Shown here: in pieces, positions 6,376-62,300 of the stretch
How positions within the stretch are numbered: the stretch's first letter is position 1
Layout: each line of letters begins with the position of its first letter
Origin: Roseococcus suduntuyensis
GTDB lineage: Bacteria > Pseudomonadota > Alphaproteobacteria > Acetobacterales > Acetobacteraceae
DNA: 64,000 nt
Reading direction: 5' to 3'
NCBI RefSeq assembly: GCF_014196305.1
Contig: NZ_JACIDJ010000001.1
Coordinates: 978,290-1,042,289 of the forward strand
Notes under the pieces: model-generated
Database searches by the model: none
The model's input: the letters and a program-made list of their open reading frames with translations, nothing else
What the model was told of the DNA's origin: nothing
Position numbers and translations under genes: made by a program

Positions 6376-6430
6376 TTTGCCAGGCGGCCGATTCACGGCT
6401 TCGGTGAGCCCACCGCAGCCGATCGGACGC
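6376..6430 (+). repeat. Dispersed GATTCAC repeat, subtype B, single copy
   Basis: A 55-base element starting TTTGCCAGGCGGCCGATTCA and ending GATCGGACGC. It matches, base for base over most of its length, the reverse complement of the triple array at 56238-56392. It contains one GANTC site (GATTC at 6390-6394). It fills most of the 121-base gap between maoC and the tandem-repeat protein gene. Part of a family described under the findings. Confidence 0.8.
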
Positions 6431-6474
6431 CTGCGGCCAGGGTGTAGCCGCTCAGGCGGGGCGCGCAACAGGGT

Positions 6475-6897
6475 TCAGCGGCGCGTCTCGGTGCGCCCCA
6501 CCTGGCGGCCCTGTGCGTCGTAATGGCGCGTCACGCCGCCCCGCGTCTCGGAACGCCCGGTCTGCCGGCCCTGGGCGTCGTAGTGGCGCGTGGTGTCCCC
6601 GCGCGTTTCGCTGCGGCCCGCGGCGCGGCCCTGGGCGTCATAGAGGCGGGTGGTGTCGCCCCGCACCTCCGCCCGGCCCTGGGCGCGGCCCTGCGCGTCG
6701 TAGTCGCGCCGGGTGTCGCCGCGCAATTCGCTGCGGCCGATCGGGCGGCCCTGCGCGTCATATTGTCGCAGCGTGGCCCCTCGCTGCTCCTCGCGCCCCA
6801 GGCTGCGCCCCTGCGCGTCATATTCGCGCTTGGACTGCGCCGAGGCATCGAGGGCCGGCAGCGAGAGGAGGAGGGCGGTGAGGAAAGCGGGCCACAT
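6475..6897 (-). CDS. Exported protein with six 20-residue YDAQGR repeats
   Basis: Protein of 140 residues: a signal peptide (about residues 1-20, ending ASAQS), then five full 20-residue repeats and a partial sixth. The repeat pattern is YDAQGRxxGRxExRGdTxR, from residue 26 to the end. The repeats are rich in Arg and Gly and very uniform. YD/RHS and MORN-like repeats share the YDxxGR flavour, but those are associated with large toxins or membrane binding and I cannot assign a role. No membrane segment beyond the signal. It lies 29 bases downstream of the methyltransferase gene on the same strand. Confidence 0.75.
   Translation of the reverse strand: MWPAFLTALLLSLPALDASAQSKREYDAQGRSLGREEQRGATLRQYDAQGRPIGRSELRGDTRRDYDAQGRAQGRAEVRGDTTRLYDAQGRAAGRSETRGDTTRHYDAQGRQTGRSETRGGVTRHYDAQGRQVGRTETRR
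6478..6822 (-). repeat. 60-bp coding tandem repeat array
   Basis: Five full 60-bp units and a 45-bp partial unit inside the exported repeat protein gene. Each encodes 20 residues beginning YDAQGR. The units differ at several positions, so this is an established protein repeat and not a very recent slippage event. Confidence 0.85.
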
Positions 6898-6926
6898 GGG
6901 GCGAAGCCTTCCCTGCCCTCATGGCG

Positions 6927-7571
6927 TCAAGAAGGCAGCAATCGGGCGATGGTGACTTCGCGCAGCGTGCGATCCTCCAGTTCCAGGGAGGTCGGCACGG
7001 CGTGGCGGGAGAGGGGTTCCAGCCCCTCGCGCGGGAGATAGGCGCGGCCCGGATCGGCCAGCCAGACCTCGACGCCCGCCGCCGCCATGGCGCGCAGCCA
7101 GGGCAGGATATGGGCGGTCATCGGCGCCTCGTAGCAGACATCGCCGGCCAGGATGACGTCCCAACGGGGCGGATCACCCACCACGTCGCGGTCCAGCGCG
7201 GTCACGGACACGCCGTTCAGCACGGCGTTCAGGCGGATGGCGGCGACCGCCATGGGGTCAATCTCGGCGGCCTCGACCTGTGCCGCGCCGGCCTGGGCGG
7301 CGGCGATGGCGGCGATGCCGCAGCCCGCCGCGAAATCCAGCACCCGCCGCCCGCGCACCCGTTCGGGCGCGTCGAGGATGCTGCGCGCCAGGGCCTGCCC
7401 GCCCGGCCAGGCGAAGGCCCAGAAGGGGGGCTCGATGCCCGTTTGCGCCAGGAATTCCTCGCTGGCGTGCCAGATGGGGGTGATCTCGCTGGCCAGGTGC
7501 AGCCGGATTTCGGGCACCAGGGGGGCCACGCCGATGGTGGTCTGCGCCGTGATGAAGCCCTCGGCGTTCAA
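6927..7571 (-). CDS. Class I SAM methyltransferase, ETFB-lysine-methyltransferase-like
   Basis: Protein of 214 residues with a Rossmann SAM-binding fold: VLDFAAGCGIAAIAAA is motif I, AEIDPMAVAAIRLNA motif II, and WDVILAGDVCYE the motif IV region. This block order and the DVCYE end are typical of the METTL20-type family, known to methylate the beta subunit of electron transfer flavoprotein; that substrate is inference here. The gene starts with TTG at 7571, overlapping the ubiA stop (TTGA), which suggests translational coupling with ubiA. No ATG gives a better start. Confidence 0.8.
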   Translation of the reverse strand: MNAEGFITAQTTIGVAPLVPEIRLHLASEITPIWHASEEFLAQTGIEPPFWAFAWPGGQALARSILDAPERVRGRRVLDFAAGCGIAAIAAAQAGAAQVEAAEIDPMAVAAIRLNAVLNGVSVTALDRDVVGDPPRWDVILAGDVCYEAPMTAHILPWLRAMAAAGVEVWLADPGRAYLPREGLEPLSRHAVPTSLELEDRTLREVTIARLLPS

Positions 7572-8503
7572 ACCCGGCCGACCAGCATGGCCAGCGCCAC
7601 GGCGAAGCCCACCTCGCGGTTGAACTTGAACAGCGCGAGGCAGCGCGCGGGATCATGGATGTCCAGCGCGCGGATCTGCCAGGCCAGCATCCCCGCCGGG
7701 ACCAGCAGGGCCACGTAATACCACGCGGAAAGCCCCGCCACCGCCCCGGTCAGCGCCAGCAGCGCCACCGTCCCGGCATAGCAGGCGGCGAGGAAGGGGC
7801 GCGTGCGCTCGCCGAACTTCAGCGCGGTGGAGCCGATGCCCAGCATCGCGTCATCCTCGCGGTCCTGGTGCGCGTAGATGGTGTCGTAGCCGAGAATCCA
7901 GAGGATGGTGGCCGCGTAGAGCGGCAGCACCTCCCACCCCAGCCCGCCCGAGGCCGCCGCCGGCCCCATCACCGCGCCCCAGCCGAAGGTGAAGCCCAGT
8001 ACAAGCTGCGGGTAGTCCGTCACGCGCTTGGCCGCCGGGTAGAGCAGGATGGGCAGCAGCGACAGCACGCCCAGCCAGATGGCGGTGGCCGAGAGTTGCA
8101 GCAGCACCACCAGCCCGATGGTGCAGAGAAGTGCGAGGAAGGCCACCGCCTGCCGCGGCGTGACGGCGCCTGAAGCGAGCGGCCGGCCCCGCGTGCGCTC
8201 CACCTTCGCGTCAATGTCGCGGTCCCACAAATCGTTCACCACGCAGCCCGCCCCGCGCATCACGAAGGCGCCCAGCAGGAACAGGAAGGCCAGCCACAGG
8301 CCGAAGCCCCAGGAGGGCGCCAGCAGCGCGATCCCCCACAGCCCCGGCAGAAACAGCAGCCAGGTGCCGATGGGCCGGTCGGCGCGCATCAGCAGCGCAT
8401 AGGGCCGCCAGGACGCGGGTAGATGCGCGACCCAACCCTGGGTTCGGATGTCGGTGTAGCCTTGCACGGCGCCATGCAGCACGGCACATCGGGCCATGTC
8501 CAT
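7568..8503 (-). CDS. ubiA: 4-hydroxybenzoate octaprenyltransferase
   Basis: Integral membrane prenyltransferase that joins a polyprenyl chain to 4-hydroxybenzoate in ubiquinone synthesis. The two aspartate-rich motifs are visible: NDLWDRDIDAKVERTRGRPL near residue 90 and YAHQDREDD further on, with about eight or nine hydrophobic helices. The start is uncertain: ATG at 8503 or 8497, or GTG at 8482 or 8467, since homologues usually begin close to the TDIRTQGW segment. The two ATG choices overlap the start of rsmE on the opposite strand. Confidence 0.94.
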   Translation of the reverse strand: MDMARCAVLHGAVQGYTDIRTQGWVAHLPASWRPYALLMRADRPIGTWLLFLPGLWGIALLAPSWGFGLWLAFLFLLGAFVMRGAGCVVNDLWDRDIDAKVERTRGRPLASGAVTPRQAVAFLALLCTIGLVVLLQLSATAIWLGVLSLLPILLYPAAKRVTDYPQLVLGFTFGWGAVMGPAAASGGLGWEVLPLYAATILWILGYDTIYAHQDREDDAMLGIGSTALKFGERTRPFLAACYAGTVALLALTGAVAGLSAWYYVALLVPAGMLAWQIRALDIHDPARCLALFKFNREVGFAVALAMLVGRV

Positions 8504-9260
8504 CCCTCGGGTCCACATGGAACAGGCGCTGGCGGAGGGCGCGGAATGCGCCCTCACCCCCGCCCAGGCGCATCATCTGGGCGTGGTGCTGCGCCGCGCG
8601 CCGGGTGCCGCCCTGCGCGCCTTCAACGCCACCGATGGCGAGTTCGAGGCGGAACTCACCGCCCTGCGGAAGGAACGCGGCGCGGTGCGGATCGGCCCCC
8701 GGCGGCGCGAACCCGTGGTGGAGCCCGAATTGCGCGCCCTGATCGCCGGCCTCAAGCGCGACGCCATGGGCTGGGCCGTCGAGAAGGCCACGGAACTGGG
8801 TGCGACGCGCATCATCCCCGTGCTGACCCGCCGCTGCGTGGCCGAGGGCGGCAAGACCGAACGCCTGGCCACCATCGCCCGGGGTGCCGCCGAACAATGT
8901 GAGCGCCTGTCGGTTCCGGTCGTGGACCCCGCCCGCCCGCTCCATGCCGTGCTGGACGCCTGGGACGGCGCGCCCCTGCTGGTGGCCGCCGAACGCCGCG
9001 AGTCCCGCCCCCTGCTGGAATTTTTGCCAGGACTGTCAGCGCCTTGTGCCTTCCTGGTCGGCCCGGAGGGCGGCTTTGAACGGGCCGAACTTGACGATCT
9101 GGCCCGGCGGCCCTTTGTTTCACTGGCCTCGCTCGGGCCGCGCATCCTCCGCGCGGAGACGGCGCTGGTGGCGGGTCTGTCGGCGATGTCCCTCTCGCTC
9201 GACCACCCGCCTGACGCATCAGGAACACGAGCACCGCATGTCCAACCCCGGCCAGGCTGA
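8496..9260 (+). CDS. rsmE: 16S rRNA (uracil1498-N3)-methyltransferase
   Basis: Methylates U1498 of 16S rRNA. 254 residues. It begins MSIPRVHMEQ, as RsmE proteins usually do, has the N-terminal PUA-like part with QAHHLGVVLR, and the SPOUT-type knot region LVGPEGGFERAELDDLA and ASLGPRILRAETA that binds SAM. The C-terminal tail after LSLD reads 23 bases into gshA in another frame. It is the first gene of a plus-strand run rsmE-gshA-coaBC-dut-moeB-dsrE, and its start codon overlaps the ubiA ATG on the other strand. Confidence 0.95.
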   Translation: MSIPRVHMEQALAEGAECALTPAQAHHLGVVLRRAPGAALRAFNATDGEFEAELTALRKERGAVRIGPRRREPVVEPELRALIAGLKRDAMGWAVEKATELGATRIIPVLTRRCVAEGGKTERLATIARGAAEQCERLSVPVVDPARPLHAVLDAWDGAPLLVAAERRESRPLLEFLPGLSAPCAFLVGPEGGFERAELDDLARRPFVSLASLGPRILRAETALVAGLSAMSLSLDHPPDASGTRAPHVQPRPG

Positions 9261-10581
9261 CCCGACGCCGATCACCCACGCGCGTCAGTTGGCGGAGTGG
9301 TTCGCCGCCGGCTCCAAGCCGCGCGACGCCTGGCGCATCGGCACGGAGCACGAGAAGTTCGGCTTCCGCCGCCAGGGTGGCACGCCGCCCAGCTACGAGG
9401 ACCAGGGCATCCAGGCCATGCTGGAGGGCATCCAGGCCAAGGGCTGGGCGCCCATCACCGATGCCGGGAACGTCATCGGCCTGACGCGGGATGGCGAATC
9501 GGTCAGCCTGGAGCCGGGCGGGCAGTTCGAGCTGTCCGGTGCGCCGACGCAGACCCTGCACGAGACGCGCCTGGAACTGGCCGCGCATCTGCGCGACGTG
9601 CACGAGATCGCGGCGCCGCTGGGCCTCGGCTTCGCCGGCATGGGCTTCCACCCGGTGGCGACGCGCGAGGCGATGCCCTGGATGCCCAAGTCCCGCTACA
9701 AGATCATGCGCCGCTACATGCCGCTGAAAGGCGGCCTCGGCCTCGACATGATGCTGCGGACCTGCACCGTGCAGGTGAACCTCGACTTCGGCGACGAGGC
9801 CGACATGGTGGAGAAGCTGCGCGTCTCTCTGGCGCTACAGCCGCTGGCCACGGCGCTCTTCGCCTCCTCGCCGCTGCTGGAGGGCACGCCCTCCGGCTTC
9901 AAGTCGCTGCGCGGCCGCGTCTGGACCGACACCGACCCCGACCGCACCGGCATCCCCGCCTGCGTCTTCGAGGAGGGCTTCGGCTTCGAGCGTTTCGCGG
10001 AATATGTGCTGGACGTGCCCATGTATTTCGTGGCGCGCGACGGCATCCTGCACGACGTGGCGGGTGCGTCCTTCCGCGACTTCATGGCCGGCCGCGTGGA
10101 GGCCCTGCGCGGCATCCCCGCCACCATGGGCGACGTGGCCGACCACGTGACCACCGTCTTCACCGAGGTGCGCCTCAAGAAATTCCTGGAGATGCGCGGC
10201 GCCGATTCCGGCAGCGCCGCCATGGTGCTGGCCAAGCCCGCCTTCTGGGTGGGGCTGCTCTATGACGACGCCGCGCAGAAGGCCGCGCGCGCGCTGACCC
10301 GCAGCTGGACGCTGGACGAGATCATGGCCATGCGCGCCGAGGTGCCGCAGCAGGCCCTCCAGGCGCGCATCGCGGGACGCGAGTTGCGCGACGTGGCGCG
10401 CGAGGTGCTGGCCATCAGCGCCGACGGGTTGCGCGCGCGCGGCCTGGGCGAGGAGGCCTATCTCGCGCCCCTGTGGGAGATCGCGGAAAGCGGCATGACG
10501 CAGGCCGACCGCATCCTCCAGCTCTACCACGGCCCCTGGGCGGGTGATGCCGCCCAGGCCCTGCCTTTCTGCGAGATGTGA
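9238..10581 (+). CDS. gshA: Glutamate--cysteine ligase, plant/alphaproteobacterial type
   Basis: First, ATP-dependent step of glutathione synthesis, joining the gamma-carboxyl of glutamate to cysteine. 447 residues. The IGTEHEKFGF block near residue 36 and SLEPGGQFELSGAP near residue 87 are the diagnostic family motifs for glutamate and Mg-ATP binding. The start at MSNPGQADP lies within the last codons of rsmE, so the two are probably translationally coupled. The stop overlaps the GTG start of coaBC. Confidence 0.94.
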   Translation: MSNPGQADPTPITHARQLAEWFAAGSKPRDAWRIGTEHEKFGFRRQGGTPPSYEDQGIQAMLEGIQAKGWAPITDAGNVIGLTRDGESVSLEPGGQFELSGAPTQTLHETRLELAAHLRDVHEIAAPLGLGFAGMGFHPVATREAMPWMPKSRYKIMRRYMPLKGGLGLDMMLRTCTVQVNLDFGDEADMVEKLRVSLALQPLATALFASSPLLEGTPSGFKSLRGRVWTDTDPDRTGIPACVFEEGFGFERFAEYVLDVPMYFVARDGILHDVAGASFRDFMAGRVEALRGIPATMGDVADHVTTVFTEVRLKKFLEMRGADSGSAAMVLAKPAFWVGLLYDDAAQKAARALTRSWTLDEIMAMRAEVPQQALQARIAGRELRDVAREVLAISADGLRARGLGEEAYLAPLWEIAESGMTQADRILQLYHGPWAGDAAQALPFCEM

Positions 10582-11765
10582 CCATGCTGCACGGTCGCCG
10601 GATCCTGCTGGTCGTCTCGGGCAGCGTCGCGGGGTTCAAGGCGCTGATGCTGGCGCGGCTGCTGCGCGCCGAGGGCGCCACGGTGCGCGCGGTGCTGACG
10701 GCGGCGGGCGCGCGCTTCGTCACGAAGGAATCGCTGGCCGCCATCACGGGCGAGGCGGTGCAGGACGACCTCTGGGCCGCCGAGGCCGAGATCGGCCATA
10801 TCCGCCTGGCGCGCTGGGCGGAGCTGGTGGCGGTGGTGCCCGCTTCCGCGAACCGCCTGGCGCAGATGGCGCATGGCCTGGCCGATGACCTGGCGGGCTG
10901 CATCCTGCTCGCCACCCGCGCGCCGGTGCTGGTGGCGCCGGCCATGAACCCGGCCATGTGGGAACACCCGGCCACGCGTGCGAACATGGCGCTGCTGGCC
11001 GCGCGCGGCGTGCGCTTCGCCGGCCCCGTGGAGGGCGCCATGGCCGAGCCGGAGAGCGGCGCCGGACGCCTGATGGAACCCGATGCCATCGCCGCTGAAA
11101 TCCGCGCCGTGCTGGCGGGCGGGCCTTTGTCGGGGCGCCATGTGCTGGTGACCAGCGGGCCCACGCATGAGCCGATAGACCCCGTGCGCTACATCGCCAA
11201 CCGCAGCAGCGGCAGGCAGGGCCATGCCATCGCGGCCGCGCTTGCCCGGCTCGGTGCGCGCGTCACGCTGGTCAGCGGCCCCGTGCAGGTGCCGGACCCG
11301 GCGGGCGTGACGGTCCGCCGCGTGCAGACGGCGCGCGAGATGCTGGCCGCCTGCGAAGCGGCACTCCCCGCCGACGCCGTCATCTGCGCCGCCGCCGTGG
11401 CCGATTGGCGCGTGGCGGCGGAGGCCGGGCAGAAGATGAAGAAGGAACCGGGTGCCGCGGCGCCCACGCTCGCCATGGCGCTGAACCCGGACATTCTCGC
11501 CACCCTGTCGTGCCACGCGCAGCGCCCGCGCCTGGTGGTGGGTTTCGCCGCGGAGACGGAGAAGGTGGTGGCGCACGCGCGGGACAAGCTGGCGCGCAAG
11601 GGCTGCGACTGGATCGTGGCCAATGACGTGTCCGGCGATGTGATGGGGGGCGCGGAGAACGCCGTCCACCTCGTCACCGCATCCGGCGTGGAAGACTGGC
11701 CGCGCGCGCCGAAGGAGGAGGTGGCCGCCCGCCTCGCCGCGCGCGTGGCGGAGGCACTGGCATGA
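10578..11765 (+). CDS. coaBC: Bifunctional phosphopantothenoylcysteine decarboxylase / phosphopantothenate--cysteine ligase
   Basis: Two steps of coenzyme A synthesis: ligation of cysteine to 4'-phosphopantothenate (C-terminal CoaB) and FMN-dependent decarboxylation (N-terminal CoaC). 395 residues, full length. CoaC shows SGSVAGFKAL, the PASANRLAQMAHG loop and the PAMNPAMWEHP segment with the active-site region. CoaB shows VTSGPTHEPIDPVRYIANRSSG and the C-terminal NDV(S) segment with ligase residues. Start GTG at 10578 overlaps the gshA stop (GTGA); ATG at 10584 is an alternative. Confidence 0.95.
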   Translation: MTMLHGRRILLVVSGSVAGFKALMLARLLRAEGATVRAVLTAAGARFVTKESLAAITGEAVQDDLWAAEAEIGHIRLARWAELVAVVPASANRLAQMAHGLADDLAGCILLATRAPVLVAPAMNPAMWEHPATRANMALLAARGVRFAGPVEGAMAEPESGAGRLMEPDAIAAEIRAVLAGGPLSGRHVLVTSGPTHEPIDPVRYIANRSSGRQGHAIAAALARLGARVTLVSGPVQVPDPAGVTVRRVQTAREMLAACEAALPADAVICAAAVADWRVAAEAGQKMKKEPGAAAPTLAMALNPDILATLSCHAQRPRLVVGFAAETEKVVAHARDKLARKGCDWIVANDVSGDVMGGAENAVHLVTASGVEDWPRAPKEEVAARLAARVAEALA

Positions 11766-11865
11766 CGCGCCTGATCGTCGAGCGGAGCGAGACGTGAATC
11801 AGCCGCGCATCAACCCGCGCCTGATCGTCGAGCGGAGCGAGACGTGAATCAGCCGCGCATCAACG
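11766..11865 (-). repeat. Tandem 50-bp duplication with GATTCAC-family element at the dut start
   Basis: Two copies at exactly 50 bp, identical over 49 bases (11766-11814 and 11816-11864). Read on the minus strand each unit contains CTGATTCACG and GATCAGGCG ends, the same boundaries as the element at 35298, so I place it in the dispersed family (subtype D). Each copy carries the purine-rich GCGGAGCGAG and a GTG start; the second GTG is the start of dut. Each copy has one GANTC site. Confidence 0.8.
11794..11847 (+). other. Possible 17-codon upstream reading frame before dut
   Basis: The first copy of the duplicated initiation region gives GTG at 11794, with the same ribosome binding sequence as dut. 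Because 50 is not a multiple of three it is out of frame, runs for 17 codons and stops at a TGA (11845-11847) that overlaps the dut GTG. This would couple dut translation to the small frame. No homologue is known to me; it may be only a by-product of the duplication. Confidence 0.3.
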
Positions 11866-12290
11866 TCCTCGTGCAGCGCCTGCCGCACGGCGCCGATCTG
11901 CCGCTGCCCGCCTATGCCACCGAGGGCGCGGCGGGCATGGACCTGCTGGCCGCGCGCGACCTGACGCTGCCGCCCGGCGGGCGCGCCCTGGTGCCGACCG
12001 GCCTCGCCATCGCGCTGCCCGAGGGCTACGAGATGCAGGTGCGCCCGCGCTCCGGCCTGGCACTCAAGCATGGCGTGACCGTGCTGAACGCGCCCGGCAC
12101 GGTGGACGCGGATTATCGCGGCGAGGTCGGCGTCATCCTGATCAACACCGGTGATGCGCCCTTCGCCATCGCGCGGGGTGACCGCATCGCCCAGGCCGTC
12201 TTCGCGCCCGTGACGCGCGCCGGCTTCGAGGAGGTGGTGGTGCTGCCCGAGACGCGGCGCGGCACCGGCGGCTTCGGTTCCACGGGCTGA
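11844..12290 (+). CDS. dut: dUTP diphosphatase
   Basis: Trimeric dUTPase that hydrolyses dUTP to dUMP and keeps uracil out of DNA. 148 residues. Motifs in order: [14 protein letters not shown] (motif 1), [10 protein letters not shown] (2), [11 protein letters not shown] (3), [16 protein letters not shown] (the substrate-binding hairpin with the catalytic Asp), and the flexible C-terminal [10 protein letters not shown] (motif 5). Start GTG with GCGGAG five to ten bases upstream. That initiation region is the second copy of a 50-bp duplication, and the first six codons lie in the repeat. Confidence 0.96.
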
Positions 12291-12296
12291 GCCGCC

Positions 12297-13555: not shown

Positions 13556-15770
<2,215 letters not shown>

Positions 15771-17320: not shown

Positions 17321-17429
17321 TTGCCGGGAGGGCGATTCACCGCTTCGGCGATTCCGCCTTCGCGGATCGCGCTACGTTGCCGGGAGGGCGATTCACCGCT
17401 CCGGCGATTCCGCCTGCGCGGATCGCGCT
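17321..17429 (+). repeat. Dispersed GATTCAC repeat, subtype A, two tandem copies
   Basis: Copies at 17321-17373 and 17377-17429, period 56 bp. They differ at three positions. Each begins TTGCCGGGAGGGCGATTCAC and ends CGGATCGCGCT; the second half can fold as GCGAT(T)CCGC with GCGGATCGC around a four-base loop. Each copy has two GANTC sites. They lie between livF and the livK-type gene in the presumed operon, so they may influence processing or downstream expression. Confidence 0.85.
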
Positions 17430-17513
17430 CCCGAAGCTTTCCTGTTCCCCCGCGCGCCGCGCTTCGACTAGCCTTTCACCACGGGCCAGCAAGGCCCCAT
17501 CCAGGAGGAACTC

Positions 17514-34678: not shown

Positions 34679-35269
34679 ATGAGGCTGGTCTGGGTGATTT
34701 CAGGCATCCTGGTCGGCGCCGTCTTCATCGGCGCCTCCGGGACGGGACAGGCGCAGCCGCAACGCGGCCGCGCCGCGGAAGCGCTTTTGCCCCTGCCGCC
34801 GCCGCCCACGCCCGCCGCGCCCCCGATGCGGGCCGCGCCGCCCCCCCAACCCGCACCGGCCGCGCCGCCGCCCCCCGTCGCCACTGCCCAGCGCGGTGCG
34901 CAGACGCCGGTGGTCTGGGCCACCATCTATGCCGCGGCACCTCCGTCGCGCGCCTATGGCATCAGCCCGGCCACGCGCGACCGGCTCATCGCCCACCAGC
35001 GCGCCGAGGCGCAATGCCGCGCCGGGCCGGGCGGCAACACCTGCCGCCGCCTGGTCGAGATCCAGCAGGGCTGCGCCGTGCTGGTGCAGGGCGCGCGCGA
35101 CGACCGGTTGCTGCCCTTCACCACGCCCGACCCCAACCAGCCGGTGATGCTGGCCGTGGCGGGCGCGGGCTTCACCGTGGAGGACGCGACGCGCGACGGC
35201 ATGGACCAGTGCCAGCGCCGCCAGCGCGGCGCCATCTGCCGCGTCATCGCCTCGATCTGCGCGCGGTGA
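34679..35269 (+). CDS. Exported DUF4189-like protein
   Basis: 196 residues: signal peptide (VWVISGILVGAVFIGASG, about residues 4-22), a proline/alanine-rich linker (residues 36-75), then a compact domain of about 110 residues with four to six cysteines (RAEAQCRAG, NTCRRL, QGCAVL, DQCQRR, AICRVI, SICAR). The cysteine pattern and WATIYAAAPPSRAYG opening resemble DUF4189 domains in exported alphaproteobacterial proteins. Disulfide-stabilised, periplasmic or surface location is likely. Function unknown. Confidence 0.7.
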   Translation: MRLVWVISGILVGAVFIGASGTGQAQPQRGRAAEALLPLPPPPTPAAPPMRAAPPPQPAPAAPPPPVATAQRGAQTPVVWATIYAAAPPSRAYGISPATRDRLIAHQRAEAQCRAGPGGNTCRRLVEIQQGCAVLVQGARDDRLLPFTTPDPNQPVMLAVAGAGFTVEDATRDGMDQCQRRQRGAICRVIASICAR

Positions 35270-35297
35270 GCGTCTGAATCAGCCGCTCGGCGTGTCC

Positions 35298-35346
35298 GGG
35301 CGACTGATTCACCGCTCCGGCGATATCGCCTTCGCGGATCAGGCGC
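35298..35346 (+). repeat. Dispersed GATTCAC repeat, single copy with CTGAT/ATCAG ends
   Basis: CTGATTCACCGCTCCGGCGA leads to GCCTTCGCGGATCAGGCGCC. The ends CTGAT and ATCAG pair, closing the hairpin. A partial related stretch (TGAATCAGCCGCTCGG) precedes it at 35274-35290. The stop codon of the LysR gene (minus, 35341-35339) is formed by the TCA of its GGATCAGG end. Confidence 0.75.
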
Positions 35347-36214
35347 CCTCATCCTCCCGCGCCGTCGCCACCAGCCACTCCGCGAAGAGGGAGAGCGGCG
35401 CGGACACCCGACCCGGCGGCAGCACCAGCCAATAGCCGTCGCCCGCCGGCAGCGCCGCGGGCGCCAGCGGGACGAGGCGCCGGGCCCGCACCTCCTCCCG
35501 CACGAAGCCGGGCGGGCAGATCACGGTGCCCAACCCCTCCAGCGCGGCCTGGATGGCGAGGGTGGTGCTCTCATAGAGCAGGGGCGGCGTCGCCTCGGGC
35601 AGCCCGGCGCCTTGCCGCCAACGCGCCCAGTCGCCCGGCCGCACGCGGCTGCCCAGCATCCGCCCCGGGATGGGCGCCTCGGGCGTGCGCCGCGCCGCCA
35701 GCGCGGGGGCGGCGAAGGGCGCGATGGTGACGGGTTGCAGCGCCCGCGCCGTGGGCGAGGGGGGCGCGCCCAGCGGGCCGGTGCGGACGGCCGCATCCAC
35801 GCCCTCCCGCGCGAAATCCACGGGGGCGATGGAGGTGCTGACCTCCACATCCAGCCCCGGGTGGCGGCGCTTGAACTCCGACAGGCGCGGGATCAGCCAG
35901 CGCAGCGCCCAGGTGGTGTAGGCGCGGATGCGCAAGGGCGCCGTCTCCGCCCGCATCTCCCGCGCCGCCGCCTCGATGCGGGCGAAGCCCTCGCGCAGGC
36001 CGGTGGCGAGGCGCGCTCCCGCCTCGGTCAGGCGCAGCGCGTTGGGGCTTCGGTGCACCAGGGCGCAGCCCAGCGCCGCCTCCAGCTCGCGCAGGCGGCG
36101 GCTGATGGCGGGCTGCGTCACCCCCAGCGCGGCGGCAGCGCGCGTCACGCTGCCCGTCTCGGCGATCAGGTGGAAGGCCCGCAGGCTGTCCAGCGGGGGC
36201 AGGGCGCTCGGCAT
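35339..36214 (-). CDS. LysR-family transcriptional regulator, GcvA-like
   Basis: 291 residues. N-terminal winged helix LRAFHLIAETGSVTRAAAAL and LGVTQPAISRRLRELEAALG (residues 9-50), then the substrate-binding domain from about residue 90 with a GcvA/AmpR-like RIRAYTTWALRWLIPRL start. Divergent from the Bug-type gene at 36335, the usual arrangement for LysR activators, so it probably controls the Bug/enoyl-CoA hydratase/acyl-CoA ligase unit. Its stop codon lies in a dispersed repeat. Confidence 0.9.
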   Translation of the reverse strand: MPSALPPLDSLRAFHLIAETGSVTRAAAALGVTQPAISRRLRELEAALGCALVHRSPNALRLTEAGARLATGLREGFARIEAAAREMRAETAPLRIRAYTTWALRWLIPRLSEFKRRHPGLDVEVSTSIAPVDFAREGVDAAVRTGPLGAPPSPTARALQPVTIAPFAAPALAARRTPEAPIPGRMLGSRVRPGDWARWRQGAGLPEATPPLLYESTTLAIQAALEGLGTVICPPGFVREEVRARRLVPLAPAALPAGDGYWLVLPPGRVSAPLSLFAEWLVATAREDEGA

Positions 36215-42101: not shown

Positions 42102-42202
42102 CTGGAGTGCGATCCGCGAAGGCGGCATCGCCGAAGCGGTGAATCGCCCTCCCGGCAATCTGGAGTGCGATCCGCGAAGCGGTGAATCGCCCTCCCGGCA
42201 AT
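42102..42202 (-). repeat. Dispersed GATTCAC repeat, subtype A, two copies
   Basis: Copy 42102-42159 (58 bases) and copy 42160-42202 (43 bases). On the minus strand each starts ATTGCCGGGAGGGCGATTCA. The second lacks exactly 15 bases (one internal hairpin arm) between two CGAA words. They are transcribed as part of the glnK-amtB 3' region before the terminator. Confidence 0.85.
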
Positions 42203-53896: not shown

Positions 53897-55369
53897 ATGC
53901 TCGACGCCACCGCGAAGCTGCCGCTGAAGGACCCCTCGCTGTTCCGCGAGGCCAACCTCATCAACGGCGAATGGGTCCAGGCCGACAGCGGCAAGACCGT
54001 CGCTGTCCGCAACCCCGCTACGGGCGAGGTCATCGGCCATGTCCCCGCCATGGGCGTGGCCGAGACGCGCCGCGCCATCGAGGCCGCGCACGCCGCCTTC
54101 GGCGCCTGGCGCAAGCTGCTGGCCAAGGAACGCGCCGCCATCCTGCGCCGCCTGCATGACCTGATGCACGCGAACGCCGATGACCTGGCCGCCATCATGA
54201 CGGCCGAGCAGGGCAAGCCGCTGGCCGAGGCCAAGGGCGAGGTGGCCTATTCCGCGAGCTTCCTCGAATGGTTCGCGGAGGAAGCCAAGCGCGTCTATGG
54301 CGACACCATTCCGCCCAACGCGCCGGGCCGCCGCGTCATCGTGATGAAGGAGCCGATCGGCGTCTTCGCCGCCATCACGCCCTGGAATTTCCCGAGTGCG
54401 ATGATCACCCGCAAGGCCGGCCCCGGCTGGGCCGCGGGCTGCACGGGCGTGATCCGGCCCGCGAGCCAGACGCCCTTCTCGGCGCTGGCGCTGGGCGTGC
54501 TGGCCGAGCGCGCGGGGATGCCGCCCGGCGTGTGCAACGTCATCACCGGGCCCGCCGCCGCGACGGGCGGGGAGCTGACCTCCAACCCGCTCGTGCGCAA
54601 GTTCAGCTTCACGGGCTCCACGGAAGTGGGGCGGCAGTTGCTCGCGCAATGCGCCACCACGGTGAAGAAGACCAGCATGGAGCTGGGCGGCAACGCGCCC
54701 TTCCTGGTGTTCGAGGACGCGGACCTCGATGCGGCGGTGCTGGGCGTCATGGCGTCCAAGTATCGCAACACCGGGCAGACCTGCGTCTGCGCCAACCGCA
54801 TCCTGGTGCAGTCGGGCGTCTATGACGAATTCGCGGCCAAGCTGAAGGAGGCGGTGGAGGGATTGAAGGTCGGCAACGGGATGGAGCCGGGCGTGACGCA
54901 GGGCCCGCTGATCAACGCCGATGCGGTTGCCAAGGTGGAGGAACACATCGCCGACGCCACGTCGAAGGGGGCCAAGGTGCTGACCGGCGGCAAGCGCCAC
55001 GGAAATGGCGGCAATTTCTTCGAGCCGACCATCCTGACCGGCGTGCCGGCGGGTGCCCTGTGCTTCCGCGAGGAGACCTTCGGTCCCGTCGCCCCGCTCT
55101 TCCGCTTCGAAACGGAGGAGGAGGGCATCGCTCTCGCGAACGACAGCGAATTCGGCCTGGCCGCCTATTTCTACGCGCGCGACGTGGGCCGCATCTTCCG
55201 CGTGGCCGAGGCGCTGGAGAGCGGCATCATCGGCATCAACGAGGGCATCATCTCGACCGAGATCGCGCCCTTTGGCGGCGTGAAGCAGTCCGGCCTGGGC
55301 CGCGAGGGCAGCAAATACGGCATCGAGGACTATCTCGAGATCAAGTATCTTGCCCTGGGCGGCGTCTGA
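53897..55369 (+). CDS. gabD: Succinate-semialdehyde dehydrogenase-family aldehyde dehydrogenase
   Basis: 490 residues. ITPWNFPSAMITRKAGP, SFTGSTEVGRQL, the catalytic glutamate in SMELGGNAPFLVFEDAD and catalytic cysteine in NTGQTCVCANRILV are all present. The overall pattern is GabD-like (succinate semialdehyde or glutarate semialdehyde). One oddity: the conserved cofactor-binding Lys of the KPAS motif reads Arg (GVIRPASQTPFSA), and the preceding Ala-Leu is Gly-Trp. It lies directly before the intradiol dioxygenase gene (five bases). Confidence 0.9.
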   Translation: MLDATAKLPLKDPSLFREANLINGEWVQADSGKTVAVRNPATGEVIGHVPAMGVAETRRAIEAAHAAFGAWRKLLAKERAAILRRLHDLMHANADDLAAIMTAEQGKPLAEAKGEVAYSASFLEWFAEEAKRVYGDTIPPNAPGRRVIVMKEPIGVFAAITPWNFPSAMITRKAGPGWAAGCTGVIRPASQTPFSALALGVLAERAGMPPGVCNVITGPAAATGGELTSNPLVRKFSFTGSTEVGRQLLAQCATTVKKTSMELGGNAPFLVFEDADLDAAVLGVMASKYRNTGQTCVCANRILVQSGVYDEFAAKLKEAVEGLKVGNGMEPGVTQGPLINADAVAKVEEHIADATSKGAKVLTGGKRHGNGGNFFEPTILTGVPAGALCFREETFGPVAPLFRFETEEEGIALANDSEFGLAAYFYARDVGRIFRVAEALESGIIGINEGIISTEIAPFGGVKQSGLGREGSKYGIEDYLEIKYLALGGV

Positions 55370-55374
55370 CCGCC

Positions 55375-56238
55375 ATGCGCGACTTCGACGAGGCCAGCAT
55401 CACCGAGGCGGTGCTGGCCCGTTTCGAGACCACGCCCGACCCACGCCTGCGCCAGGTGATGCAGGCGCTGGTGCGCCATCTGCACGGCTTCGTGCGCGAG
55501 GTGGAGCCGAGCTTCGAAGAATGGCAGGCGGCAATTTCCTTCCTCACGCAGACTGGCCAGAAATGCGACAACACGCGGCAGGAATTCATCCTGCTGTCGG
55601 ACACGCTGGGCGTGTCCATGCTGGTGGACGCCATCAACCACCGCCTGCCGGAGGGGGCCACGCCCACCACCGTGCTCGGCCCCTTCCATGTGGCGGGTGT
55701 CGCGGAAAAGCCGCTCGGCAGCGTGCTGGCGCAGGGCGTGGGCGGCGAGCGGCTGCACGTCTCGGGCCAGGTGACGAGCGCGGATGGCACGCCGCTGGCG
55801 GGCGCGCTTCTGGACATCTGGCATTCGGACGCGGAGGGCTTCTACGACGTGCAGCGCGCGGAAGGCCCGGTGCCCGAATTGCGCGCCGTCTTCCGCACCG
55901 ACGCCGAGGGCGGCTTCCACTTCTGGACCATCACCCCCACCGCCTATCCCGTGCCGACCGATGGCCCGGTGGGCGCCATGCTGGAGGCCACGGGCCGCCA
56001 CCCCATGCGCCCGGCCCATGTCCACTTCATGATCAGCGCGCCCGGCCACGAGACGCTGGTGACGCATGTCTTCGCCGAGGGCGATGAATACCTCGACAGC
56101 GACGCGGTCTTCGGCGTGAAGGACGCGCTGGTGGTGCCCTTCGCGCCGCAGCCGCGGGGCGTGGCGCCGGACGGCACGGTGCTGGACGCGCCCTGGCGGG
56201 TGCTGCGCTATGACTTCGCGCTGAAGAAGCTGGGGTAG
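55375..56238 (+). CDS. Intradiol ring-cleavage dioxygenase, hydroxyquinol/catechol type
   Basis: 287 residues. The N-terminal helical domain EWQAAISFLTQTGQKCDNTRQ and LSDTLGVSMLVDAINHR is typical of hydroxyquinol and catechol 1,2-dioxygenases. The iron ligands are in GFYDVQ (Tyr), TPTAYPVP (Tyr), and RPAHVHFMI (two His). It opens an aromatic diol to a muconate or maleylacetate product. Its stop overlaps the first repeat of the array at 56238. Confidence 0.9.
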   Translation: MRDFDEASITEAVLARFETTPDPRLRQVMQALVRHLHGFVREVEPSFEEWQAAISFLTQTGQKCDNTRQEFILLSDTLGVSMLVDAINHRLPEGATPTTVLGPFHVAGVAEKPLGSVLAQGVGGERLHVSGQVTSADGTPLAGALLDIWHSDAEGFYDVQRAEGPVPELRAVFRTDAEGGFHFWTITPTAYPVPTDGPVGAMLEATGRHPMRPAHVHFMISAPGHETLVTHVFAEGDEYLDSDAVFGVKDALVVPFAPQPRGVAPDGTVLDAPWRVLRYDFALKKLG

Positions 56239-56392
56239 CGTCCGATCGCCTTCGGTGGAACACCGGAGGCGTGAATCGGCCGCGTGGCAAAGCGTCCGAT
56301 CGCCTTCGGTGGAACACCGGAGGCGCGAATCGGCCGCGTGGCAAAGCGTCCGATCGCCTTCGGTGGAACACCGGAGGCGTGAATCGGCCGCT
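56238..56392 (-). repeat. Dispersed GATTCAC repeat, subtype B, three tandem copies
   Basis: Exact 54-bp period: copies at 56238-56291, 56292-56345 and 56346-56392 (the last is shorter). Each reads GCGTCCGATCGCC, a hairpin-forming centre (CGGTGGAACACCGG) and GTGAATCGGCCG on the plus strand. The middle copy has one base change, GCGAATC for GTGAATC. It lies between convergent genes. Confidence 0.88.
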
Positions 56393-56398
56393 CGGGCT

Positions 56399-57733: not shown

Positions 57734-57736
57734 CGC

Positions 57737-58276
57737 TCAGCGTCCCCGGATGGCATTTGGCAGCAGGGCCAGGTGCGCGATGGCGCCCGCCGCACCCCCC
57801 AGCACGATCAGCGCGCGGAAGGGCCAGGTGGGCACAGTGAAGAGGCCCTGCACGCCGAAGAATTCCCGCAAGGCCAGCGAATTCCACACACCGGGCCAGG
57901 CCGCCCAGGCGATGAACGCCATCACGGCCGCACCGACCAGCAGGAACACGACCTCCATGGCGCGGCCCAGCGCGGGCGCCGTGCGGACGATGCGGTCAAT
58001 GAGGAAGTCGGCCCGCGTCATGCGGCGCTGGTAGATGGTGGCGCCGATCTGCAGGAAGACGATGCCCACCACGGAATGCGCCGCGATCTCGGCGACGCCC
58101 GTGATGGGCGCGTTCAGGAAGGAACGCCCGATCACATCCGCGCAGATCAGCAGCATCAGCCCGAAGGTCCAGATGGTGCCGATGGCGGCCAGCGCATCGA
58201 GCGCGAGCCGCACCGGGTCGAAGCCCCGCGGTCCGGGCGCGGCGTCCAGCGCCGCCATGTTCGTCTCATCGGCCAT
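57737..58276 (-). CDS. dctQ: TRAP transporter small permease
   Basis: 179 residues, four hydrophobic segments. SFLNAPITGVAEIAAHSVVGIVFLQ is the DctQ signature region. Three bases separate its stop from the dctM ATG. It is the membrane adaptor between the binding protein and DctM. Confidence 0.92.
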   Translation of the reverse strand: MADETNMAALDAAPGPRGFDPVRLALDALAAIGTIWTFGLMLLICADVIGRSFLNAPITGVAEIAAHSVVGIVFLQIGATIYQRRMTRADFLIDRIVRTAPALGRAMEVVFLLVGAAVMAFIAWAAWPGVWNSLALREFFGVQGLFTVPTWPFRALIVLGGAAGAIAHLALLPNAIRGR

Positions 58277-58297
58277 GGCGGCGCTTTCCTTCCGGCT

Positions 58298-59368
58298 TCA
58301 GGCGGTCACTTCGCGGTCCCAGTCGCGGCCGGGCGTCTGGCCCGCGCCACGGATGGCGGCGAAATAGGCGTTCAGCACGTCGCGCGAGGCGGGGCCGGAA
58401 CTGCGCGCCCAGGTCTGCGCGATGTTGGGCAGCCCGCTGATCCAGCGCTGGCGCTCGGCGGGGGCGAGCGTGGTGATGATGGCACCCTTCTGCACCATCT
58501 CGGCCTCGGCGGCCGCGATGCGCGAGGACACGTCCTGGATATGCGCGACGGTGCTGGCCTTGCCCGCCGCCGTCATCGCGCGCCGCACCGGCTCGGGGAA
58601 GCGGCCGAAGCGCTGGCGGTTGGCCGCGATGCCGCCCACATACATCGCGCCCACATCGCATTTGCAGATGTGCCGCGCGACCTCATAGACGCGCGTGGGC
58701 AGGATACCCACGAAGAAGGAGAGCGCCCCTTCGGACACACCCGTCTGGATGTCCGTGTAGTAGGTGGTCAGCGCGCCATCCACCGGCGTCGCCCCTGTGC
58801 CGGAGAGCCAGTTCGCGCTGGTGCCGGGCGCCGAGATCTTGCGGTTCCGCAGATCGTCCAGCGTCCGCACCGGGAAGGTGGACCAGATGTGGTAGGTGTC
58901 CGTGATGAAGGACGACAGCGGCACCATGTTCAGCGAGGACCAGTTCTCGCGGATGGCCGGCACGTTCTCGTTCATCGCCTCGAAGGCATTGGCCACCACG
59001 GCGTGGTCGCCGGTGGCGAAGGGCGTGAAGTAGGTGACGTTCTGGAGGGGCATGGTGCTGCCCTCCCACAGCGTGCCGACATAGCCGATGTCGGTGATGT
59101 TGTCGCGCACCGCCTCCATCGTGTCCTGGAAGCGATAGAGCGTGCCGCCATAGGCCTCGCGCCAGTTGATGCGGTGGGTGTTGCCGTTGTCGCGCAGGAA
59201 TTTTTCCGTCTCCGGCTGGAAGACGTTCTTCATCATGGACACCCAGAAGTTGGCTACCGGGTGGGATGAGGCGATGGTGACGTTGAGCGCCGTCTGCGCC
59301 TGCGAATGCACGGCGAACAGCGGCAATGCGGCGGCGCCTGCCGCCAGGCTGCGGCGATGGATGGACAT
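58298..59368 (-). CDS. dctP: TRAP transporter substrate-binding protein, DctP family
   Basis: 356 residues. Signal peptide with MSIHRRSLAAGAAAL (cut near residue 25), then the DctP fold: TIASSHPVANFWVSMMKN, YVGTLWEGSTMPLQNV, RNRKISAPGTSANWLSGTG. The start is set by GGGAGG before ATG 59368. The ligand is not obvious; organic acids bound through a conserved arginine are usual. Immediately downstream of coxL-like, so the substrate is probably that of the hydroxylase. Confidence 0.9.
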   Translation of the reverse strand: MSIHRRSLAAGAAALPLFAVHSQAQTALNVTIASSHPVANFWVSMMKNVFQPETEKFLRDNGNTHRINWREAYGGTLYRFQDTMEAVRDNITDIGYVGTLWEGSTMPLQNVTYFTPFATGDHAVVANAFEAMNENVPAIRENWSSLNMVPLSSFITDTYHIWSTFPVRTLDDLRNRKISAPGTSANWLSGTGATPVDGALTTYYTDIQTGVSEGALSFFVGILPTRVYEVARHICKCDVGAMYVGGIAANRQRFGRFPEPVRRAMTAAGKASTVAHIQDVSSRIAAAEAEMVQKGAIITTLAPAERQRWISGLPNIAQTWARSSGPASRDVLNAYFAAIRGAGQTPGRDWDREVTA

Positions 59369-59391
59369 GTTGTTTCCTCCCGTTCCCGGCA

Positions 59392-61788
59392 TCAGATGCG
59401 GCCCAGCGCGGCCAGGATGCGCGCGGGGGTGAAGGGTTGTTCCAGCACGCGCGCACCCAGCGGCGCCAGCGCGTCATTGATGGCGTTCATCAAGGCACCC
59501 GGCGCGCCCGCCGTGCCGGCCTCGCCCGCGCCCTTGGCGCCAAGCAGGCTTTCCTTCGTGGGCGTCTCGACATGGCCCACATGGATGTCCGGCATCTCGG
59601 CCGACATGGGCACCAGGTAGTCGGCCATGGTGGTGGTGAGCAAATTGCCGCGCTCGTCATAGACGCAGTGTTCGTAGAGCGCGCCGCCCAGCCCCTGCAC
59701 CACGCCGCCGCGCACCTGCTCATCCACCAGCAGCGGGTTCACGACGCGGCCGCAATCCTCCACCACCCAATGCTCCAGCAGCTTCACCATGCCGGTGTCG
59801 GTGTCCACCTCGGCCCAGCAGGCCTGGATGCCGTTGGTGAAGGCGAAGGGGTATTCCTTGGTGATGAAGTGGCGCGTCTGCACCAGCTCGCGCGGCAGGT
59901 CACGCGGCAGGGTGTCGCCGCGGAAATAGACGATGCGGCCGAGTTCGTGCAGCGACATGCGCTGGGCGCCGCTCGCGCGGTCGGTGATGTGGCCCATCAC
60001 GATGTCGAGACTCTCGGGTGCCGCCTGGAGCATGGCGCCCGCCACCTCCAGGATCTGCGCCTTCAAGGCCAGCGCCGATTGCAGCGCCGCCTCGCCGCCG
60101 ATGCCCGCCCCGCGGCAGGCCCAGGTGCCGCCGCCATAGGGCGTGTTCAGCGTGTCGCCGGTGATGATCTTCACGCGCTCCACCGGCACGCCCACGCCGT
60201 GGGCCACGATCTGCGCCAGGATGGCTTCGGTGCCCTGGCCCTGTTCCGTGACGCCCGAGGACGCCACCACGGAACCATCCGGGTCCATCCGCACCGTGCA
60301 GCCATCCTGTGCCGAGATGCGCGCGCCGCCGATGCCATACATGAAGGGCGAGGGGTTGGTCAGTTCGATGAAGGCCGCGAAGCCCAGGCCCCGGTGCACG
60401 CCTATCGCGCGCTGTTCCGCCTGGTCCGCGCGGATGCGCGCCACCGGCACCATCTCCAGCAGCTTGTCGAGGCTCGCATGGTGCGACAGCCCCTCGAAGC
60501 GCATGCCGGGCGGCGAGGTGAAGGGATAGGCGTCGTCGCGGATCATGTTGCGCCGGCGCAGGTCCAGCGCGTCCATGCCGAGCTCGCGTGCCGCCATCTC
60601 GACCAGCCCCTCGGTCACGGCGGTGGCAATGGGGTGGCCGACGGCGCGATACTGGCAGGTGGGCGCCTTGTTCTGCAGCACCACGCGCGTCGTGCAGCGG
60701 TAATGCGCGAAGTCATAGGGCCCGCCCACCAGGTTCACCACCTGGTTGCCCTCCATAGCCGAGGTGCGCGGATAGACGGAATACGGCCCGATGCCCGTCA
60801 AATCATCCACGTCGAAGCCGATGATGGTGCCGTCCGCATTCACCGCCATGCGCGCCTTGATGCGATGGTCCCGCGCATGGATGTCGGAGGCGAAGCTCTC
60901 GAAGCGGTCGGCGATGAACTTCACCGGGCGCCCAAGCACGCGCGCCATGGCGGCGACGGCCACCTCGTCCGGATAGACATGCACCTTGATGCCGAAGCTG
61001 CCGCCCACATCCTTGCAGATGACGCGGACCTGGCTCTCCTCCAGCCGCAGGTGCTTCGCGAATACGTTCTGCATCATGTGCGGCGCCTGGGTGGCTTGGT
61101 GCACCGTCAGCATGCCGTCCGCGCGGTTGTAGTCCGCGATGATGGAGCGGGGTTCCAGCGTCACGCCCGTGTGGCGACCCGTGACGAAGGTGGCCTCCAC
61201 CACCTTGTGCGCGGCGGCGAAGGCCGCGTCCACATCGCCCTTGGTGGCGGTGCGGGTGAAGACCAGGTTGTCACCCAGCTCGGGGTGGATCACCACGGTG
61301 CCGGCGTCCAGCGCCGTCTCCATGTCGGTCTGGGCGGGCAGGGGGTCCCAGTCCACCTCGATGGCGGCCACGCCATCCTCGGCGGCGGCGCGGGTGTCGG
61401 CCAGCACGGCGACCACCGCCTCGCCCTGCCAGGTGGCGCGGTCCAGCGGCAGCGGGTGCTGCGGCGCGGACTTCATGCCCTTCAGGTGGTCCAGCACCGC
61501 CACCCAGGGGTCACAGACCTTCGCCAGGTCGGCGCCGGTGAAGACGCGCACCACGCCCGGCACCGCCAGCGCCGCCTCGATGCGGATGGCGAGAATTCGC
61601 GCATGCGCGTGCGGGCTGCGCAGGAAGGCCGCGTGCAGCATGCGCGGCAGCACCACGTCATCCGTGTAGGTCGCGCGGCCCTGAACCAGCTTGGGCAGGC
61701 TTGGCCGCGGCACCGAACGGCCGATGTAGGAGTTGGGCAGATCCTCGCGCGAGAGGCCGATGCTGGCCGGCGTGGGAATCTCGTTCAT
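59392..61788 (-). CDS. Molybdenum hydroxylase large subunit (xanthine dehydrogenase family)
   Basis: 798 residues. Mo-cofactor motifs include DVGGSFGIKV, GVTEQGQGTEAI, GTWACRGAGIGG and the C-terminal LLGAKGAGEAGTAGAP carrying the catalytic glutamate. Where CO dehydrogenase form I has AYRCSFR and form II AYRGAGR, this protein reads QYRAVGHP, so CO dehydrogenase is not supported. It hydroxylates an unknown, probably aromatic or heterocyclic, substrate. ATGA overlap with the iron-sulfur subunit. Confidence 0.88.
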   Translation of the reverse strand: MNEIPTPASIGLSREDLPNSYIGRSVPRPSLPKLVQGRATYTDDVVLPRMLHAAFLRSPHAHARILAIRIEAALAVPGVVRVFTGADLAKVCDPWVAVLDHLKGMKSAPQHPLPLDRATWQGEAVVAVLADTRAAAEDGVAAIEVDWDPLPAQTDMETALDAGTVVIHPELGDNLVFTRTATKGDVDAAFAAAHKVVEATFVTGRHTGVTLEPRSIIADYNRADGMLTVHQATQAPHMMQNVFAKHLRLEESQVRVICKDVGGSFGIKVHVYPDEVAVAAMARVLGRPVKFIADRFESFASDIHARDHRIKARMAVNADGTIIGFDVDDLTGIGPYSVYPRTSAMEGNQVVNLVGGPYDFAHYRCTTRVVLQNKAPTCQYRAVGHPIATAVTEGLVEMAARELGMDALDLRRRNMIRDDAYPFTSPPGMRFEGLSHHASLDKLLEMVPVARIRADQAEQRAIGVHRGLGFAAFIELTNPSPFMYGIGGARISAQDGCTVRMDPDGSVVASSGVTEQGQGTEAILAQIVAHGVGVPVERVKIITGDTLNTPYGGGTWACRGAGIGGEAALQSALALKAQILEVAGAMLQAAPESLDIVMGHITDRASGAQRMSLHELGRIVYFRGDTLPRDLPRELVQTRHFITKEYPFAFTNGIQACWAEVDTDTGMVKLLEHWVVEDCGRVVNPLLVDEQVRGGVVQGLGGALYEHCVYDERGNLLTTTMADYLVPMSAEMPDIHVGHVETPTKESLLGAKGAGEAGTAGAPGALMNAINDALAPLGARVLEQPFTPARILAALGRI

Positions 61789-62300
61789 CGGCGGGCCTCC
61801 CGCGTGCGATCACCTCGGCCGGCATCGGCCGAGGTGTGAATCGCCCGCTCCGAGAGCGTTGCGGCTACCGCCTCCACGATGGCCTGGTAGCCGGTGCAGC
61901 GGCAGTAGTTGCCGGCGAGATGCTCGCGGATCGCGGCGCGGTCGGCATCGGCGTGGTGGGCCAGGATGTCGGCCGCCGCCATCACCATTCCCGGCGTGCA
62001 GAAGCCGCATTGCGCGGCGTTTCTCGCCACGAACTGGTCCTGCAAATCGGCCACCTCGCCGCTGTCGGTCAGGCCCTCGATGGTGGTGACCTCGGCGCCG
62101 TCCAGGCTGGCGGCCAGCACCAGGCAGCCGCGCACGATCTCGCCATCCACGCGCACCGTGCAGGCGCCGCAGACCCCATGCTCGCACCCGGCGTGCGAGC
62201 CGGTGAGGCCGAGGTCCAGCCGCAGGAAGTCGATCAGGTGGCGGCGGGGTTCGACATGGCGCGTCACGCGCTCGCCATTGACGGTCAGGGTGATCATCAT
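61785..62300 (-). CDS. Molybdenum hydroxylase small [2Fe-2S] subunit
   Basis: 171 residues. N-terminal plant-type ferredoxin cluster CEHGVCGACTV with C following at GCLVLAAS, and the second cluster QCGFCTPGM and NYCRCTGYQ. After VAATLSE the C-terminus RAIHTSADAGRGDRTREARR is encoded largely by a dispersed repeat (61804-61850) and has no counterpart in typical CoxS proteins. ATGA overlap with the FAD subunit. Confidence 0.92.
   Translation of the reverse strand: MMITLTVNGERVTRHVEPRRHLIDFLRLDLGLTGSHAGCEHGVCGACTVRVDGEIVRGCLVLAASLDGAEVTTIEGLTDSGEVADLQDQFVARNAAQCGFCTPGMVMAAADILAHHADADRAAIREHLAGNYCRCTGYQAIVEAVAATLSERAIHTSADAGRGDRTREARR
61804..61850 (-). repeat. Dispersed GATTCAC repeat, subtype C, inside coding sequence
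   Basis: On the minus strand GAGCGGGCGATTCAC is followed by an 11-bp perfect hairpin, CACCTCGGCCG with CGGCCGAGGTG around GCAT, then GATCGCAC. It lies within the last 22 codons of the iron-sulfur subunit gene, supplying about 15 residues. Confidence 0.75.

Follow-up and report, generated by a model that had tools for sequence, protein, structure and literature searches.

Bulged-hairpin repeats at gene ends of Roseococcus suduntuyensis, probably a family of short non-autonomous mobile elements

We analysed a 64,000-nucleotide stretch of the Roseococcus suduntuyensis genome (contig NZ_JACIDJ010000001.1, positions 978,290 to 1,042,289; hereafter the window), in which a dispersed family of short hairpin repeats, with 12 copies at seven loci, had been predicted from the sequence alone. 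A covariance model built from 11 window copies (R1) recovered all 12, with E values of 2.6e-10 or lower. For the predicted shared end word, GATTCAC, the window has 11 occurrences versus 4.26 expected (0 of 100 shuffles reached 11); all 11 lie in the predicted copies, and the twelfth copy, at 56292, carries GCGAATC. GATC and at least one GANTC site are present in each of the 12. R1 also matched a remnant half-copy. The complete set of matches is as follows.

6378 to 6433, plus strand: hairpin copy (R1 72.5 bits); site without a copy in the sister genomes G003 and G004.
11764 to 11812, minus strand: first hairpin copy of a tandem pair (period 50) in the coaBC-dut gap (R1 55.6 bits).
11814 to 11862, minus strand: second hairpin copy of that pair, carrying the GTG start of the listed dut open reading frame (ORF) (R1 56 bits).
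17322 to 17377, plus strand: first hairpin copy of a tandem pair (period 56; R1 71 bits); the site has two copies in G004 and one in G003.
17378 to 17433, plus strand: second hairpin copy of the same pair (R1 75.8 bits).
35267 to 35292, minus strand: half-copy, a remnant (R1 19.7 bits, E 0.008).
35294 to 35349, plus strand: hairpin copy (R1 67.5 bits); the same site has four copies in G003 and one in G004.
42102 to 42157, minus strand: hairpin copy (R1 74.4 bits); site without a copy in G003 and G004.
42160 to 42200, minus strand: tandem copy (period 58), its apical part lost, as judged by alignment (R1 47.7 bits).
56235 to 56289, minus strand: first hairpin copy of a triple array (R1 73.6 bits); site without a copy in G003 and G004.
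56290 to 56343, minus strand: second hairpin copy of the triple array, the GCGAATC variant (R1 64.4 bits).
56344 to 56397, minus strand: third hairpin copy of the triple array (R1 64.9 bits).
61799 to 61854, minus strand: hairpin copy (R1 65.5 bits); the site has a copy in G004 and none in G003.

The predicted tandem periods of 50, 56, 58 and 54 bp were borne out, as was the division of the family into subtypes. Copies within one locus, described in the original prediction as close to identical, are not always so, since two subtypes are combined in one 59-bp pair outside the window.

Many further copies were found in a genome-wide search with R1, at least 155 in the R. suduntuyensis genome (the best 150 of 10031 candidates were scored). 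Copy counts in the multi-genome comparisons are likewise lower bounds, with the best 23-28, 138 or 150 candidates scored. A continuous 660 kb segment of contig 1 gave 107 R1 hits, which reduced to 90 copies after overlap removal and form 61 clusters, or 62 if split by strand; extrapolated in proportion, this would give ~560 copies in 4.14 Mb. Of the 92 GATTCAC words in the 660 kb, the repeats hold 76. With these words and the further copies in the genome, the family withstood the refuting check named in the original prediction. Congeners contained copies in 20 of 20 genomes searched, from 1 to at least 139 each. With a broader model (R2), copies were found in 97 of 200 genomes and 55 of 102 genera of the family, which in GTDB is Acetobacteraceae (NCBI places Roseococcus in Roseomonadaceae), and 6 other genomes of 240 in a class-wide sample had 1-4 weak matches each. 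Across 28 repeat-positive genomes, 26 in the family and two outside it, copy numbers ranged from 2 to at least ~150.

The predicted hairpin interiors proved to have more in common than their end words: all copies follow a single hairpin design, with a TCA bulge and covarying stems. Folding of seven representative window copies gave a common structure with an outer stem of 3-4 bp, one mismatch, five pairs ending in GAT, and then the TCA bulge, present on one strand only; beyond the bulge there are at least four pairs, which an internal loop or mismatch separates from an apical stem closed by a loop of 3-4 nt. The outer stem is not formed in some copies, and the centroid structure of the 17321 copy differs. 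At its core, the repeat is a hairpin of ~46 nt. Its strands are told apart by the three-base bulge, TCA on one and TGA on the other, which marks the strand and orientation of the hairpin. A typical unit, written on the strand complementary to the model, consists of (C)TA, followed by GCG-Y-NNGAT ... TGA-ATCNN-Y-CGC and a TCAAA tail.

In the 11 window copies, 99.4% of alignment cells were paired, and 7 of 16 pairs changed on both sides and none on just one; sliding the partner by 1-3 columns decreased pairing to 26-47%. A set of 143 distinct copies, partly seeded by the GATTCAC pattern, was 97.8% paired, with 333 two-sided change cells versus 107 in shuffles. The bulge was TCA in 83 of the 90 R. 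suduntuyensis copies found by R1, and GATTC was intact in 86; among 45 copies from 30 loci (the best R2 hits), 43 had GATTC and none had another form of GANTC. Since the R2 and pattern-scan sets were both seeded with GATTCAC, conservation in them is partly circular; the 90-copy and 45-copy sets are less so, yet were also chosen by model score. Loci L262-L264, from other genera, read GATTCAG...CATC, so that the base following TCA can switch in concert with the G of GATC. Mispairs amounted to 12 G-T and 17 A-C in the 1386 cells of the 90 copies, and to 5 and 12, respectively, in the 45 copies. These counts show no clear preference for an RNA strand, and such mispairs, rare and not clearly strand-specific, are expected if selection acts on folding of DNA and not of RNA. 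A-C mispairs, which are G-U on the other strand, are slightly in excess; this points away from selection on the DNA fold, but the excess is small.

Mobility of the REP/BIME type (repetitive extragenic palindromes and bacterial interspersed mosaic elements), raised as a possibility in the original prediction, was supported by empty sites in sister species, and the family is apparently mobile. Both flanks were found in G004 for 47 of the 61 R. suduntuyensis clusters, with no flank pair for the other 14. At 21 of these 47 the site was occupied, and at 26 it lacked an R1 copy, 22 of the latter having 30 bp or less between the flanks. In the opposite direction, 33 G004 clusters corresponded in R. 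suduntuyensis to 21 occupied sites, 11 empty ones (7 with 30 bp or less) and one without a pair, and six G003 clusters to three empty sites, two occupied ones and one without a pair. Where R. suduntuyensis and G004 share a site (21 cases), the former has more copies at eight and fewer at two. In the window, the loci at 6376, 11766, 42102 and 56238 have no copy in either sister genome and the locus at 61804 has none in G003 only, while two loci are shared with both sisters, with copy numbers differing in G003. The coaBC-dut insertion was missing in 20 of 20 relatives that had both flanks (21 searched; 18 congeners and two members of other genera).

The repeats lie predominantly on gene edges, as had been predicted: 36 of the 61 clusters are intergenic, 6 partly intergenic, and 19 genic, within a region that is 88% coding. 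Gene context was taken from a crude gene finder that overcalls, and some of the 19 genic clusters are probably an artefact. The 42 non-genic clusters comprise 17 between convergent, 21 between tandem, and 4 between divergent genes, versus 126, 306, and 126 of 558 gene pairs. On the strand complementary to the model, the hairpin is directly preceded by TA in 24 of 62 clusters (1.0% in the control), and in 25 of 62 CAA lies among the 12 bases that follow the hairpin (8.4% in the control); the base before the first G of the hairpin is C in 46% and G in 20%, with no invariant GTAG. For 25 clusters with a co-oriented gene ending no more than 60 bp upstream, the stop codon was TAG in 16, versus 150 of 559 called genes (p 1e-4). 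Twelve stop codons end exactly one base into the hairpin, and all twelve are TAG; on the other side of the hairpin TAG was found in 7 of 25 cases, with no bias. By eye, where TAG is present at the occupied site, several empty sites show TGA or TAA, the native stop. In the window, ORF 55060-56238 has a TAG stop (56236-56238) that is completed by the first G of the copy at 56235 to 56289.

A gene start is also involved. The plus-strand ORF 11844-12290, downstream of coaBC, is dut (dUTPase, PF00692), and its listed GTG start at 11844, closely preceded by GGAG, lies inside the repeat element. In relatives, dut has a native ATG overlapping the stop of coaBC; by this comparison, the insertion (11766-11862) seems to have separated the gene from that start. 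The repeats reshape gene ends by completing stop codons, in dut they hold the start codon of the listed ORF, and they place potential CcrM sites.

Arrays make up 23 of 62 clusters. Their periods are 50-59 bp, or roughly double wherever a middle copy escaped detection. Of 29 neighbours lying no more than 300 bp apart, 28 have the same orientation (head-to-tail). Simple tandem duplication of a copy with its flank fits the coaBC-dut pair and is not general, since arrays elsewhere share a linker (GGCAAA-like). One array outside the window, near 792281 of contig 1, is interrupted by a run of masked bases (N).

Window copies are of the single-arm form. A longer relative was matched at 18 sites in R. 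suduntuyensis, G004 and G003, and at ~15 of them inspection by eye showed a bulged hairpin joined through a TCAACAAAGG-like linker to an unbulged one, with a total length of ~90-100 bp. GGAATCACC was present at the loop at 13 of the 18 sites. The two-arm forms often have TA at their ends; TA lies directly 5' in 11 of 18, the 3' end having been read by eye. The order of arms is the same in several other genera, and at locus L270 both arms start with TAGAGCGTGATGACCG; at L171 the arms alternate.

The remark in the original prediction that no named family has this structure calls for a qualification, as the two-arm form resembles the CIR repeats as summarised in PMC2229807. CIR (Caulobacter CcrM-associated intergenic repeats) are outlined there and in PMC10969869 as elements of ~110 bp in which a linker joins two hairpin arms, with GANTC in a terminal loop and TA termini, their mechanism of movement being unknown. 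By description, which is the sole basis of this comparison, the likeness extends to an alphaproteobacterial host, intergenic position, GANTC in the loop and, as far as the two-arm form was read by eye, arms plus linker and in part TA ends. The repeats studied here differ from the summarised CIR in the conserved TCA bulge of one arm, which itself contains GATTC, and in occurring mostly as single arms or head-to-tail arrays. The copy number of this genome, at least 155, also sets them apart, as CIR are not known to exceed some tens of copies per type.

With REP, BIME, and REPIN elements, as outlined in PMC3733652 and PMC8266576, the repeats share a short strand-asymmetric hairpin, gene-end location, high copy number, and a partner hairpin; the irregular bulged stem of E. 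coli REPs has its counterpart in the TCA bulge. They differ from GTAG REPs as outlined there in the lack of a match to the REP-associated tyrosine transposase (RAYT) in the genus, in having no invariant GTAG, and in a bulge that is a 3-nt insertion on one strand. CGTC REPs are described in PMC3733652 as predominantly alphaproteobacterial, missing from Acetobacteraceae, and having no known dedicated transposase, with a stem of 8-9 bp, a loop of 4-5 nt, AT at the stem start, a CCA tail, and mainly head-to-head (HH) dimers. Many of our copies start the hairpin with GCGTC, but their stems are 3+5+4+4 with a bulge, the tail is TCAAA, and neighbours are head-to-tail. We therefore class the repeats as an unnamed variant of REP/CIR-like elements rather than as a member of any one of these families. 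Among the titles listed in literature searches, none is on these repeats in Roseococcus or Roseomonas; the 1,369 REPs mentioned for Lichenicola cladoniae by RepRanger may or may not be these repeats.

We consider it likely that the repeats are short non-autonomous mobile DNA elements, similar to REPs or miniature inverted-repeat transposable elements (MITEs), with a bulged-hairpin core. A DNA enzyme acting in trans would recognise the folded, bulged strand. Two-arm forms would be the complete unit and many single hairpins one-arm derivatives of it; an insertion may survive if the end of the element itself provides the completion of a stop codon, and arrays may grow via local duplication or via insertion beside an existing copy.

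Several observations weigh against this reading. Mobility is read from the comparison of sites, and polarity was tested with many outgroups at coaBC-dut only. The R. suduntuyensis copy at 195152 is flanked by a direct repeat of ~20 bp, and a relative retains the GATTCAC word there; the insertion at 473212 is flanked by a 9-bp repeat. On these grounds, some of the "empty" sites may be losses. TA is found at the left junction in just the 24 of 62 clusters mentioned above, and TA flanking an insertion on both sides was seen, by eye, in a few cases only. Finally, a scan of 2.43 Mb (part of the genomes) for inverted TAGNGC ends 700-2600 bp apart revealed no transposase between matching ends, and the genome-wide survey covered Y1 (tyrosine transposase) enzymes only.

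A broader proposal, which we hold tentatively and with less than even confidence, is that strand-marked hairpins with a TCA bulge form an alphaproteobacterial superfamily. An enzyme that is neither RAYT nor another Y1 protein would copy them in the form of folded single-stranded DNA, and through their spread into gene ends they would have come to hold about one quarter of the GANTC sites in the 660 kb sampled. If true, this would be a new way of moving REP-like DNA. Two loci outside the family, L283 and L282 (genomes G278 and G294, assigned by bit score), have bulged hairpins of the same design, which at L283 form an inverted pair facing each other; these suggest a wider superfamily.

It is unlikely, though worth weighing, that the repeats are MITEs of a TA-targeting DDE transposase, with the two-arm form as the unit, the arm sequences as terminal inverted repeats, and TA as the target duplication. 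The transposase would be IS630/Tc1-like. The TA directly 5' at 11 of the 18 longer-form sites and the start shared by both arms at L270 are in line with this proposal. RUP elements are thought, according to PMC2229807, to be moved by an IS630 transposase. However, most copies have one arm, conservation of the bulge is left unexplained, and no transposase-bearing element with matching ends was found in the 2.43 Mb, the distribution of IS630 not having been searched. The five rows of candidate partners from the scan were rejected: a repeat pair around a 339-aa ORF without a Pfam match in G004, two rows around a weak carbonic-anhydrase match in L171, and two rows at a RAYT locus that carries its own repeats.

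We regard as improbable the proposal, modelled on CIR, that the repeats are CcrM/GcrA-linked regulatory sites retained for a methylatable GANTC. The genome does encode CcrM (L286, E 9e-149 to 6pbd), a RAMA match was present in 19 of 21 genus genomes, and the repeats are GANTC-dense spots, as anticipated in the original prediction: they make up 0.74% of bases of the 660 kb and hold 119 of its 517 GANTC sites, versus 3.8 expected by length. Yet GANTC in repeats is always GATTC/GAATC, whereas outside 84 of 398 sites are GACTC/GAGTC. Since N is always T, the bulge motif alone explains GANTC in the repeats, and methylation-driven conservation as the main cause was rejected. Further, the third base of the bulge, outside GANTC, is kept nearly as well, and sites between divergent genes are few (4 of 42). 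Avoidance of GANTC was unsupported: the word stands at 0.28 of its dinucleotide expectation in the 660 kb, but the control word of the same composition, CTNAG, is equally rare (0.28), with six others at 0.40-1.12. Methylation at GANTC sites of the repeats may have consequences.

A function in RNA at gene ends, as a terminator or for 3' stabilisation of mRNA, would fit hairpins that follow stop codons and the share of convergent sites (17 of 42 versus 126 of 558), and is nevertheless very improbable, given that G-U pairs are few, that the two strands are almost the same in this respect, that the window has no Rfam match at gathering score, and that many sites lack a copy in a sister species.

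A RAYT, suggested in the original prediction as a possible mobiliser, was not supported by searches for the enzyme. PF01797 matched one of 21 genus genomes (G016), which is among the repeat-poorest. This profile scores the RAYT-like proteins of the family at ~20-36 bits only (L234-L246), so that absence calls based on it are unreliable in this family, and a dedicated RAYT profile (A9) was built for that reason. With the dedicated profile there were no matches among the 21 genus genomes, and 38 of the 200 family genomes had one. In the latter, RAYT was not associated with the repeats (20 of 97 repeat-positive versus 18 of 103 repeat-negative genomes, Fisher p 0.59), and neither was the union of both profiles (23 of 97 versus 23 of 103). 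A Y1 match of either kind was lacking in 74 of the 97 repeat-positive family genomes, and a RAYT or other Y1 transposase went undetected in 20 of 21 genus genomes. None of 21 Y1-type loci (2.9-6.5 kb) contained a repeat. At L236 (2162-3566; G226 contig 31), from another genome of the family, a RAYT gene lies between inverted repeats of its own (TAGGGCGGAT...; TAGGGCGGATNNAATCCGCC), a separate REP-like family.

That the repeats are classic REPs moved by a RAYT, present or recently lost, is therefore largely refuted and very hard to credit, despite their likeness to RAYT substrates (a bulged single-stranded DNA hairpin, gene-end location, an unbulged partner arm as in REP/iREP pairs, NTAG before many copies) and the occurrence of RAYTs in the family. 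The copying enzyme is probably not the RAYT of classic REPs. What moves palindromic repeats without a dedicated transposase is left open in PMC3733652; empty sites in relatives, a sharp recognition feature, and genomes in which RAYT went undetected make the question of the enzyme testable with these repeats.

Other short tandem repeats (GCGCGTCAGCGCAAGAGG-like) lie outside the window, at positions 971786-971963 of contig 1, and are longer in R. suduntuyensis than in G003 and G004.

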